Shown: positions 44,073-49,718 of the stretch, piece after piece
How the letters are laid out: every line of letters starts with the position of its first letter
Numbering within the stretch: the first letter of the stretch is position 1
DNA from: Leptospirales bacterium
Lineage (GTDB): Bacteria; Spirochaetota; Leptospiria; Leptospirales; Leptonemataceae
Assembly (NCBI GenBank): GCA_019694685.1
Contig: JAIBBM010000002.1
Location: 62,001-126,000, forward strand
Reading direction: 5' to 3'
Length of the DNA stretch: 64,000 bases
Made by a program: the position numbers and the translations under genes
The notes under the pieces: model-generated
Database searches by the model: none
The model's input: the letters and a program-made list of their open reading frames with translations, nothing else
Told to the model about the DNA's origin: nothing

Positions 44073-44999
44073 CTAGAAAATGGATCTGTAGATCCAGCAA
44101 TCGGGTCCTTCATCGAAGTAACGGCGCGCTGCTGGACTGAGCTGCGCCCAGATTGACTGGGAAATTCTAAGGCGGCCACGTCCGTCTTCTTTTGCAAGAT
44201 GAGCGCTCTTATTGAGCGCCGCACTCTGCAGGATAGAGGGATCTGCTCTGTAAACAGTGTCTCCTAGATCCAGCCCGATGTTGATTCCAAAATCGCGGCT
44301 GCGATCCTGCAAAGCGCCATGCAGTACGTTCAATGTCATCAGCTCTATAGCACACATGACTACAGAAACTGCATCCTGCTTGTGAAACACAAAGAAGCCA
44401 GCGTCGTCTTTGCGAAGCCAGAGCTGCCCATTGTAGCGCTGAGCGGTTCTCGAATACATATCGAAGAGCACGCCAAGACTTGACTGAATCTCAGAACCCT
44501 GCCTGGAAACGGAAAACTTCTGATCCACAACCACCTGGCAATAGAGAAATGCGAGCGGATAAGTCTGACCTTCCACGAACGTAGAGGAGGGCTGAGACGG
44601 AGTGGGACTCCTTGAGCCAGGAAGAGAAAGATGAACCTTCATTCTGGCAATGAGGACAGGAAGATCGACAGGCTTGCCGACGAAGTCGTTTGCACCCGCT
44701 TCAAGCACAGACACGACTTGCGCGGATTCCGAATCTGATGAAATAAAGATCACAGGAAGCTCTGTGCGCGAATAACGGGCGCGAATGCGAGCAAGCACTT
44801 CCAGGCCTGAGATACCTGGCAACCCGGCGTCGAGCAGCAGCAAATCAGGCTTGGTGGAGGCGAAGAACTCAAGATAGCTTTCCCCGTTAGGAAAAATCAA
44901 AACCGACATGTCTGGTTGCGAAGCAAGGCCTCGCTGAAGAACTTCCAGGATCAGAGGATCATCGTCCACGATCACAATGGTAGAGCGTTCGTGGGTCAA
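44073..44999 (-). CDS. receiver domain fused to a degenerate cyclase-fold domain (C2-like)
   Basis: A 308-residue protein. The receiver (~6-125) is intact: VDDDP, phospho-Asp in LLLDAGLPGISG, KPVD. The C-terminal ~175 residues follow the class III cyclase fold (LAFLYCQVVVD, LWLRKDDAGFFVF, FGINIGLDLGD, SAALNKSAHLAKE). By my alignment the first metal Asp is replaced by Gln, the second Asp remains, the transition-state Asn remains (LNKSAH) and the Arg is His. It cannot be a normal homodimeric cyclase. It overlaps by four bases the gene for the complementary domain at 44996-45883. Confidence 0.8.
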   Translation of the reverse strand: MTHERSTIVIVDDDPLILEVLQRGLASQPDMSVLIFPNGESYLEFFASTKPDLLLLDAGLPGISGLEVLARIRARYSRTELPVIFISSDSESAQVVSVLEAGANDFVGKPVDLPVLIARMKVHLSLPGSRSPTPSQPSSTFVEGQTYPLAFLYCQVVVDQKFSVSRQGSEIQSSLGVLFDMYSRTAQRYNGQLWLRKDDAGFFVFHKQDAVSVVMCAIELMTLNVLHGALQDRSRDFGINIGLDLGDTVYRADPSILQSAALNKSAHLAKEDGRGRLRISQSIWAQLSPAARRYFDEGPDCWIYRSIF

Positions 45000-45883
45000 A
45001 GTGGGATCTCCGTCAGGCGATACGTTTCAAGATGATCAAAGCGTGGCCCCGCTACAAAACACGGATACATTTCCGGCTTCAAAAAAGTGTACACAGATCC
45101 CGAAATCGCCATGCGATTTGGTTCGCTGACCTCGGATTCCAGCTTTTGAGCCACACGCATGTCACTGGAGAAGATCTCGTTGACTGGTTGTTTGTACGTT
45201 GCTGTTCCGTAGTGAATGCCAACGCGAATCCGAAGTTCCGGGCCCTGCGCGAGGTATTTGATATTGAAGACTGGTAGATTCATGAGAACAGCCAGCATGG
45301 AAATCACACATCGATTCACTGAATCCGCACCGTGAAAAGCGGCCATGCCTCCGTCTCCCATCCAGTTCCAGAGACGACCGTTCCACACCTCCGCATAGTT
45401 TCGCACGTACTCTCTCATCTGTGCAAATACCTGCGCGTTCTCATGACCGAACTGCGAACTGCCCACTACATCTACCGAAGCAAAAGTCAGATGGTACTCA
45501 CGGCCCTCTGCCATGTGTCCCCAGTCCGCAGTGCGCTCCATTGCCTGGTCTCGCACGAACTGGCGCATCTCTCTGTCGTAGTGCCAGCTCTCTGCTTCGA
45601 GCAATTCGAGGAGAGCTGCTTTTCCTTTTAGTAATACTTGAGAACCTGCAACAAATTTCCCTTCGCGTGCGAGTACATGAGCAAGGAATGCGAGCAAATC
45701 CTTGTCCTGCGCAAAGAAATCCCCGATACAACGCACGGCGACCTGAAGGGGTACACGAATGCTCGATCCAAAACCGGAAACCACTCCCAGGTTGAACGAT
45801 TCATTCACCTCATGGGCGAGTATGTCCATCTGATCTGTAGTAAGAGAATGACCTATGGCCTGTAATACGCTGGAACGAAACAC
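44996..45883 (-). CDS. cyclase-fold protein retaining the metal-binding Asp residues (C1-like)
   Basis: A 295-residue protein with an N-terminal helical part (~1-125) of no recognised family and a class III cyclase-type domain (~130-280). The metal Asp are present in ASVDVVGSS and NWMGDGGMAAF, but the transition-state Asn and Arg are replaced (SSDMRVAQKLE). The adenine-specifying Lys position reads Asn. The start is a GTG 34 bases after the hybrid kinase stop; the stop overlaps the next gene (ATGA). Together with its neighbour it has a full set of catalytic residues. Confidence 0.8.
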   Translation of the reverse strand: MFRSSVLQAIGHSLTTDQMDILAHEVNESFNLGVVSGFGSSIRVPLQVAVRCIGDFFAQDKDLLAFLAHVLAREGKFVAGSQVLLKGKAALLELLEAESWHYDREMRQFVRDQAMERTADWGHMAEGREYHLTFASVDVVGSSQFGHENAQVFAQMREYVRNYAEVWNGRLWNWMGDGGMAAFHGADSVNRCVISMLAVLMNLPVFNIKYLAQGPELRIRVGIHYGTATYKQPVNEIFSSDMRVAQKLESEVSEPNRMAISGSVYTFLKPEMYPCFVAGPRFDHLETYRLTEIPL

Positions 45884-45917
45884 GAGAGACAGAATAAAAA
45901 AGCGCCCGCAATTGCAG

Positions 45918-48341
45918 TCAACTTTTTTGAACAGAAGAAGGCCGAATTACAGCAAGAACTGCATCTACAATGTCTTCTGGCGAATAGGGCTTGCTAATGT
46001 ATGCCTTGAAACCGGCAGTGAGCAGCTTCTCTCGAACCCCGGCCATTGCATTGGCTGTGACCGCCACAATTGGCGGGGCAGATTCTCCCAGTTTTTCCTG
46101 GATTTTTTTCAATGCACCAACACCATCGAGACCAGGCATCTCAATATCCATGAAGATGATATCGTAGCGCTTCAAGAGGCTCATATCCACTGCAGTCAAG
46201 CCGTCCTCTGCTGTATCCACAGTCATGCGCAGACGCTCTCCAATCTTCTGAAACACAATCCGATTGATTTCGTTGTCCTCCGCAGCCAGCACCTGAAGAC
46301 CTTCCGGAAGCAGATCGGAAGGAGCAGCGGGAGTGTCCACTCTAGTAGTGTCCACGGTCGTTGGTCTTTCAGGCAGAATCAGTATGAATGAGCTACCCCC
46401 GCCTGGAATGGATTCTGCTGTGATTTCTCCTCCCATGAGGTGAGCCAGTTGAAGGCTGATCGCAAGGCCAAGCCCCGTTCCACCTACTCGGCGCGCAGGC
46501 GAAGAGTCGAGTTGCGTAAATGATTGGAAAAGCAAACCGAATTTGTCCGGCGGTATTCCAATGCCAGTGTCTTTCACCTGAAAGCGAATCATCCCGTTGT
46601 CGCGGTCTACCTTCAGAGTGATTGTGCCGGAATCGGTGAATTTGACAGCATTGGAAAGAAGGTTCAATAGTATTTGATACACGCGGGTGCGATCGGTCAA
46701 AATCGCCTGCGGCATGTTTAACGGAAAAATCACAAGCAACTGCAAACCTTTCCTCTGCGCTGCAGGCTCCGTCATGGCAGTGAGGCTCGTGATCAAATCC
46801 TTTATCACAACCGGCTCGTCCGTAAGAGTCATCGCACCACTTTCAATTTTGGAAATGTCCAGAATGTCATTGAGAATAGTCAGAAGCGTTTCAGAAGAAG
46901 CGCGAATAGTAGAAAGGTATCTCTGTTCGTCTTCCCCGAGCTTCGCATCATCCAACAGCCGAAGCATACCCATAATTCCATTCATAGGAGTGCGAATCTC
47001 GTGACTCATGTGAGCCAGGAACTCGGCTTTCGCCTGCGAAGAATTTTCCGCAATGGAACGAGCTGTCTCAATCTCTCTGGTTCTTTCAGCCACTCTCTCT
47101 TCGAGCCTGTTTTTCCAGCTCACAAGTTCTGCATTGGTTCGCGTCAAATTCTCTGAAAGGGATTCAGACAACGCGAAAGCGCGCGAGAATCTCTTGCTGA
47201 GCCCCACCGCCTGCACAAACATGAATACAATGATTCCATAGGGAGAAAGAAGAGCTGTGTTGATGATGTTTTTGTTATAAAGAACATCATTTGCGTATGC
47301 TGCCACCATAAGCAGCAGACCCAGACCTACGGGGCCCACACCCTGCACTTTCTTAAACAGTCCGCGCGCAATTCCAAACAATAAAAAAACAGAAGCAAGC
47401 CCGACCACAATGTAGTAATAGTCAATGAACCTGGTGAAATGAAGCGGAGTAAGAAACAAAACAGAGAACGCAAATAAGAGTGCAATGGCGACGGTCGCTC
47501 TCTGACTCCAGATCAGAATTGTATCTGAATAGATGGCGGCAATGTATGCGGCAAACGCGGGAGCTGCCAGGTAGAAAGAAAGATAAACGATCCTTGCATG
47601 AACGTTATACGGAATTGAATCCAGTCCAAGCAGAATGGGAGTTGACCCGGTAAAAGCTGCACGCGCGGCCAGATTCAAACACAGAAGGGCAAAGTAAGCG
47701 GGCGCAGGATCCTTTCGGCGAAGAAAAAAAATGATTCCGTGATACAAGGCAAGAACAAGCAAAATACCCACAAGAAATGCATCACGACCCAGCTCGCGCT
47801 CTCGCATGAGGGTGATATGTTCCATGGAGCCTATGTAGGCCCCGTAGCCAATTCCTCCGCGCGCGTGATGGAAGTTCGCAAGATGGATCACAAGAACCAC
47901 CTCCGAAGAATCGGAAGGGATCTCGAAAACGCGCGGCCGCCACTCCGGTGTTGTAGTTGCTTCTGTTTCTCCAGGAGTTCCCGCCGATCCGAGCAATCTA
48001 CCATCCGCGTAAATCGAGTAAGCCGTTTCAGTGTGAGCAAAAAAGAGAGCGGGCCTGCGCAGCCCGGGCGGGAGAAGGACTTTCAAACGATACGTGGCAA
48101 AGCCTGTCCCCGGTTCTCCGTGAGAGGGCCACACTCCGGGAACTGTCATGGTCCGATCTGCAGCAGCATCCTCCGTTGGAGGAAGAAAACGATTTCGAAA
48201 AAATCCCCATTCGCCCTCTAGCTCTATGGGCTCCGAGTAAGTCATTTTGCTCAGGTCCAGGACGCCGCCCGCAGCAACAGGCAAACCCGTTCGAGGAGAA
48301 CAGGCGGCAGCAATGAAAACGAACAAAATCGCACACCGCAT
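45918..48341 (-). CDS. 7TMR-DISM hybrid histidine kinase
   Basis: About 807 residues. Lipobox-bearing signal (FIAAACS), an extracytoplasmic jelly-roll domain (~30-185), seven membrane helices (~190-395), a coiled coil, HisKA with phospho-His in [15 protein letters not shown], an ATPase ([23 protein letters not shown]) and a C-terminal receiver (EDNEIN, phospho-Asp in [18 protein letters not shown]). It is the first gene of an operon with the two cyclase-fold proteins, whose receiver domain is its likely target. The ATG at 48431 would add 30 residues before the signal; 48341 is preferred. Confidence 0.9.
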
Positions 48342-48419
48342 AACCGATCGTGCAGGTCCTCCGGTGGAACGCAAGAAGGATGTTGCTTGAATGGATGAGG
48401 GGGAATTCAAGAATCGCAT

Positions 48420-49718
48420 GTGCGCATCCATAAAATCTGCCTCCTCTCTTGCTTCTTCCTACTGTGTTCCGTCATCCAGAGTCTCCACTGCGAAACCAGA
48501 GATTCATTCCTGGTCGTACAGACAGGGTGGACCACTGCGGCGGACACTATTTCGCAGGAAGAACTTCGACGCAGTTTTTGCGCTGGATCCGTCCGCTCTT
48601 CTGCATCCGCATGGCCGGCAGCGAGCGCACTGTTCGGCTGCAAAGGAGCAGAACCCGCGAAAGTAGAGGCGTTCTATCCTGCTTCGCGCGAAAAACTCAT
48701 CCTCCTCGATCTTTCAGAAACAACTCCCCGTATGAAAGCACTGAAAGTGGACGGTCTTTCGCCGTTCGCTGACGGTGAAAAATATCCTCTTCGCGGTAAG
48801 TCCCTACCGCGGTTCACCCATTTTATTCTAACAGGCGTAAGCGCGCTCACTCGATACACTGGTAAGAGCGCGGATGCAAACGGAGTGTCGGTTCTCTCCG
48901 AACAGGTCAGACCATTCTTTCAAAGCGCAGATTTTGTTCACGTGAGCAACGAAGTAAGTTTTACATCTCCCTGCGTGTTTGAAAAAGGAACCAGGTTTTG
49001 CTCAAAGGAAGCTCACTTCCAGGTATACAGAGACCTGAAAGTAAACGTGGTTGAGCTTACGGGTAACCACAACCGCGACTACGGAAACGAACCATTCTTT
49101 CGCACATACGACTGGTTTCACGCTCACGGCATGAACACTTTCGGCGGCGGAAAAACAGAAGCATCCGCAAACGAACCACTGGTGTTGAACGCGAACGGAA
49201 CGAGAATTGTATTGATTGGTTTTAACGAACTCTGTCCGCTGAATGAATGCGCCCAGGGATCCACTCCGGGCGCCAATCGATTCGAGGCGGAAAAAGCCCA
49301 TCGCACAGTAACTGATATTCGAAAGAAGTATCCGGATGCGTTTGTCATTGCAACCGTACAGTACGGAGAAGTCAGCGCATACAAACCAACGGAATCACAA
49401 AAACGCATCAGCTACGCGCTGCTGGACTCTGGCGCAGATCTGGCATACGGTTCCCAGGCACATCAGGTCCAACAAATGGAGTTTCGAAAAGGTAAAGTCA
49501 TTCTTCACGGACTCGGAAATTTCCTGTTTGACCAGACACACACGTTTGGCCTCAGACAGGGATACTTTATGAATTTATACTTTCAAGGGAACCGCCTCGC
49601 AGGAATGGAACCAGTGTTTACCTGGATTGACGAAAAATTCAGGCCTGTTCCAGCCACTCCGGCTCAAGCACGCGAAATCAAATCCGCCATCTACTCCGAC
49701 GATTTACTGTACAAATAG
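48420..49718 (+). CDS. secreted CapA-family (PgsA-like) metallophosphatase-fold protein
   Basis: A 432-residue exported protein. The signal peptide ([20 protein letters not shown]) may also be a lipobox. The C-terminal ~280 residues match the CapA/PgsA family: [69 protein letters not shown]. The family is linked to poly-gamma-glutamate and other capsule synthesis. No capB/capC genes are nearby. The start is a GTG at 48420; its 5' end is close to or overlaps the divergent kinase gene. Confidence 0.85.

Follow-up and report, generated by a model that had tools for sequence, protein, structure and literature searches.

Gene organisation of the locus

The window, by which we mean the whole analysed stretch of 64,000 nucleotides from a Leptospirales bacterium, contains three consecutive open reading frames on the minus strand, encoding a hybrid histidine kinase and two proteins that we call A and B (Table 1). 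Gene A encodes 295 amino acids from a GTG start codon and gene B 308 amino acids from a TTG start codon. The kinase gene and A are separated by 34 bases, and A and B overlap by four bases, suggesting translational coupling. These gene positions, the overlap and the gap are as given in an earlier note on this DNA that was made from the letters alone. The kinase gene also lies where that note had placed it, but its reading frame runs to 48431, and the end given before (48341) is an internal ATG. This ATG encodes residue 31 of the kinase, precedes a hydrophobic segment and is a plausible start.

Table 1. Features of the kinase-A-B locus (positions in the window)
Feature	Position	Strand	Remark
7TMR-DISM hybrid histidine kinase (HisKA, HATPase_c, receiver)	45918..48431	-	34-base gap to A
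Gene A: N-terminal helical domain and cyclase domain with both metal-binding Asp	44996..45883	-
A residues 1-115: uncharacterised N-terminal domain	45539..45883	-	without Pfam match
A residues 131-288: class III cyclase domain, metal-site half	45020..45493	-
A Asp138: first metal-binding Asp	45470..45472	-	D in 70/70 pair A genes
A Asp177: second metal-binding Asp	45353..45355	-	D in 70/70 pair A genes
A Arg243 at catalytic Asn position	45155..45157	-	Asn in 3/70 pair A genes
A stop / B start overlap, 4 bases	44996..44999	-
Gene B: receiver and cyclase domain with Asn, His at Arg position	44073..44999	-
B receiver domain: intact acidic pair, Asp57, Lys109	44640..44978	-
B residues 141-300: class III cyclase-fold domain, Asn/His half	44100..44579	-	profile matches
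B Gln155 at first metal Asp position	44535..44537	-	Asp in 1/70 B genes
B Asn263: catalytic Asn	44211..44213	-	N in 70/70 B genes
B His267 at catalytic Arg position	44199..44201	-	H in 70/70 B genes

When searched against Pfam, the kinase matched 7TMR-DISM, HisKA, HATPase_c and Response_reg. A matched Guanylate_cyc narrowly, with 24.4 bits against a cut-off of 21.9, and the sole match in B was Response_reg, leaving its cyclase half unrecognised. Ma1120 and 3mr7 were among the best PDB profile matches, and 3mr7 was matched by the A family (E 7.5e-13), by the second half of B (E 2.5e-9) and by related genes that stand without a partner, the unpaired form (E 5.9e-15). In addition, hhalign gave a probability of 100 for the alignment of the cyclase-like domain of B with A as well as with the unpaired form. 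Judged by these profiles, the class III cyclase fold is shared by A, by the unpaired relatives and by the second half of B. Structure prediction from two-sequence alignments was unusable (mean pLDDT 33 for A and 51 for B).

The N-terminal domain of A is common to the unpaired relatives and to separate proteins of about 370 amino acids without a cyclase domain (locus L006, 5772-6884, and loci L068-L074). By eye only, the C-terminal part of those proteins is GHKL ATPase-like; the L006 protein has no Pfam match.

A and B retain complementary parts of the catalytic site

In class III cyclases, each active site is composed of metal-binding residues from one subunit and of Asn and Arg from the other. 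In our alignment, A has Asp138 and Asp177, with Arg243 in place of the catalytic Asn, Lys247 in place of the Arg and Asn173 in place of the adenine-specifying Lys. In B, the first Asp is replaced by Gln155, the Arg by His267 and the Lys by Leu195, and Asp199 and Asn263 are present; Asp57 and Lys109 of its receiver are intact. This agrees with the hand alignment of the earlier note, according to which A keeps both metal Asp without the Asn and Arg, and B lacks the first metal Asp, keeps the Asn and carries an intact receiver. The loss of the Arg in B was not mentioned there. Tested for the residues of a class III enzyme, A and the unpaired relatives have both metal Asp and B alone does not; the catalytic Asn comes from B, but the Arg position is occupied by His in all 70 B genes compared (see below).

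The absence of the usual Lys, noted before with Asn or Leu at its position, turned out to be a feature of the whole family, as Lys was never found at this position in A, B or the unpaired relatives (70 pairs and 22 unpaired genes). Almost every canonical cyclase of the window genome has it.

The pair is conserved across the phylum

Of 393 genomes sampled from the phylum, 106, belonging to 68 genera, matched the family, about 14 of these in part only. No match came from the order's other family, which is represented by eight genomes. From the hit list we picked 60 loci by hand (43 pairs and 17 unpaired genes). The full comparison set comprised 70 A-B pairs and 22 unpaired genes, including five unpaired genes from the window's own family.

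Among the 70 pairs, both Asp were present in every A gene and the Asn in only three. In B, the Asn and the His were invariant (70/70 each), the first Asp was present once and the second Asp in 25 genes. The retained positions are fixed and the discarded ones variable, with 11 different letters at the Asn column of A and 13 at the first Asp column of B. Complementary loss of residues in partner domains, as in the C1/C2 type, was seen over the set of 70 pairs. The unpaired relatives had both Asp in 22/22 genes, the Asn in 20/22 and the His in 19/22. The two without Asn (L107 and L129) both branch inside A in the tree. One unpaired relative (L120, 3532-4527) has Arg, not His, at the catalytic Arg position.

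The earlier note had proposed to look for conservation of both genes as a pair, and adjacency indeed extends over the phylum together with the complementary retention and loss. In the window's family, 19 of 21 relatives harbour these genes, and each of the 27 A genes of the pair type examined there is accompanied by a B gene, directly adjacent in 26 cases and separated by an unrelated gene in one. Each full-length B found within the order adjoins an A. Genes of either kind regularly standing alone would have spoken against the pair; the A-like genes without B form separate branches with the whole site. B was missing for just two genes of the A type, one next to the end of its contig (L107) and one followed by a run of N (L129).

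Over the phylum sample, the pairs have no recurring neighbour gene family in common; those neighbours that do recur are lineage-specific. In the window's genus, a small HATPase_c-like protein sits between the A-B pair and tldE/tldD; it scores below the Pfam cut-off (L005, 4454-5095; L045, 5061-5708). A search for plasmid carriage gave no match. The window genome itself has a second, diverged A-B pair (L005), with 40% and 30% identity to A and B of the window, respectively.

Loss of catalytic residues in other cyclases of the window genome

The window genome is unusually rich in cyclases, with 60 Guanylate_cyc matches in 4.3 Mb. We read 52 of the 58 other matches, 46 of which are solitary domains. 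The two Asp, the Asn and the Arg are all kept in 45 of these 46, and the remaining one is cut off after the second Asp. This truncated domain (L176, C69:60934-61239) lies upstream of a complete cyclase gene on the same strand. The other six domains belong to two tandem receiver-cyclase pairs, on contigs C12 and C17, and to one tandem-domain protein on contig C73, and the losses are complementary in all three. As the losses are confined to adjacent or fused pairs, the loss of catalytic residues goes with having a partner.

In the tandem pairs (L007, 2538-4749, on C12; L008, 2793-5023, on C17), the upstream gene has no metal Asp and keeps Asn and Arg, and the downstream gene keeps both Asp and has no Asn. 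The Lys is retained in these pairs. Pairs of this type are also present in the sister genomes G004 and G005, where one partner is truncated at L227 by the end of the contig or locus. Single relatives in other genomes keep the full residue set. Apparently, this type is an independent second origin of split cyclases. In the C73 protein (L009, 3424-4734), the first of the two cyclase domains has both Asp without Asn and Arg, and the second has Asn and Arg without the first Asp; it looks like a fused heterodimer.

Possible control by the adjacent kinase and its restricted distribution

The earlier note had also proposed that the activity of the pair depends on phosphorylation by the linked kinase. 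The kinase, A and B follow directly on one another on the same strand, spaced by 34 and -4 bases, no catalytic domain is missing from the kinase, and the B receiver has its Asp57 and Lys109, all of which would fit a phosphorelay in which the upstream hybrid kinase phosphorylates the receiver and switches an A-B enzyme. However, this linkage on one strand was seen in the window genome only. The nearest orthologous pair (68% and 59% identity to A and B of the window) has no adjoining kinase, the orthologous pairs of the sister genomes G004 and G005 lie beside tldD without a kinase, and the window kinase has no close orthologue in these genomes (best 35-37% identity).

The receivers point in the same direction. 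An intact receiver, with acidic pair, phospho-Asp and Lys, was found in the window B and its three nearest relatives, whereas most other B genes, as well as the paralogous pair of the same genome, have lost phosphorylation residues. Usually, Asp is changed to Glu within the window's family and the acidic pair is affected elsewhere. When the window B was compared with its own paralogue, only the cyclase half matched, and its receiver showed 41% identity to that of another response-regulator cyclase in the window. From these comparisons the intact receiver seems to have been acquired late, and the distribution of receiver and kinase suggests that phosphorylation control was a late, local addition. 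As a general feature of the pairs, dependence on a linked kinase is unsupported. It is possible that kinase control holds in this species only; a phosphorelay gating the cyclase, added to the heterodimer reading, is conceivable here, though we lean against it.

A probable composite active site shared by two diverged subunits

The adjacency of the pairs, the complementary losses and the unpaired complete-site relatives give strong evolutionary support to the proposal of the earlier note that A and B form an obligate heterodimer with divided residues. On these grounds, A and B are probably the subunits of one class III nucleotide-cyclase-like enzyme that is an obligate heterodimer. In the phylogenetic tree, A forms essentially one branch and B one or two, with the unpaired forms between them, many branches being weak. 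Single origins of A and of B were both not rejected (AU p 0.65 and 0.68). The simplest reading is that a complete-site gene was duplicated and that the labour was divided before the sampled families diverged.

An ancestor with a complete site, presumably homodimeric, would have been duplicated, and its form would persist in the unpaired genes. The A copy would have retained the two metal-binding Asp, and the B copy the Asn and the His that replaces the transition-state Arg. A head-to-tail A/B dimer would then have one composite active site, using His in place of Arg, and one dead site. The complementary pattern is what would be expected if a duplicated homodimeric cyclase had become an obligate heterodimer with a single composite site. 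Such complementation has been engineered in Rv1625c, in which D300A and R376A partners restore each other's activity (PMC4821796). The composite site would probably act on a nucleoside triphosphate, whose base we leave unspecified because the Lys is absent family-wide. In this species only, phosphorylation of the B receiver by the kinase just upstream might tune the pair. In its widest form, the proposal that these are phylum-wide, previously undescribed two-gene obligate heterodimeric bacterial cyclases, with Asn and His from one subunit, metals on the other and a product other than cAMP, is put forward tentatively.

Catalysis is not assured, because the Lys is never present and the Arg is replaced by His. 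The A-B heterodimer might instead bind nucleotide and metal without catalysis, serving as a sensor or scaffold with output via the N-terminal domain of A or the receiver-like domain of B. The missing Lys in A, B and the unpaired forms and the change of Arg to His in all B genes would agree with this, as would the degenerate receiver in most B genes and the lack of a conserved effector nearby in the phylum sample. We regard it as unlikely, since the two Asp of A and the Asn and His of B are fixed in 70 of 70 pairs over large divergence, which catalysis fits best, and at least one known class III enzyme, Rv1900c, is active without a canonical transition-state residue. Rv1900c is cited as having His at the Asn position (PMC4886424). 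That A and B are decaying paralogues working separately, with coincidental losses, is very improbable and was rejected: B is strongly diverged with a cyclase half missed by Pfam, and A has lost Asn and Arg, but chance would not account for the fixation of different halves in A and B across 70 pairs, nor for losses that are confined to paired genes within the window genome.

Comparison with known cyclase systems

With the Pycsar cyclase PycC, the unpaired relatives and A genes share weak profile similarity (best E 1.4e-11); none of the B genes tested matched PycC. A single PycC protein of clade A carries two cyclase domains, the structures from clades D and E are homodimers, and Pycsar includes a cyclic-pyrimidine receptor gene (PMC11224242). 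As the profile match is weak and no recurrent gene family, such as a PycTM or PycTIR receptor gene, was found beside the pairs in the phylum sample, membership in Pycsar was rejected.

The bacterial homodimeric class III enzymes Ma1120, 3mr7 and Rv1625c share the fold and the metal Asp with the pair. In these the subunits are complete, whereas A and B are each incomplete, and reviews describe bacterial class III cyclases as homodimerising single polypeptides and place the duplication behind the mammalian pseudoheterodimers in eukaryotes (PMC9552081, PMC4821796). We found no paper on natural bacterial heterodimeric class III cyclases in the open literature, most subscription journals lying outside the search. 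The split pair recurs across the spirochaete phylum, whereas the bacterial enzymes have been described as pairs of identical subunits. A natural two-gene version in bacteria, with living complete-site relatives, would allow study of the steps by which an obligate heterodimer arises from a symmetric enzyme. Moreover, many spirochaete genes unnamed by Pfam or NCBIfam are hereby flagged as candidate second-messenger enzymes.

In its division of residues, the A-B pair resembles the mammalian membrane adenylyl cyclases, in which two diverged domains (C1/C2) divide the catalytic residues, one keeping the metal Asp and the other the Asn. The mammalian enzymes are pseudoheterodimers (PMC9552081). In contrast, A and B are encoded by two separate bacterial genes, have no membrane anchors, lack the Lys and have His in place of Arg, and their origin would be independent. 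Soluble guanylyl cyclase likewise pairs two homologous subunits, alpha and beta, each encoded by its own gene, in a heterodimer (PMC3591389), but A and B are bacterial, have no H-NOX domains and carry other residues at the Lys and Arg positions.
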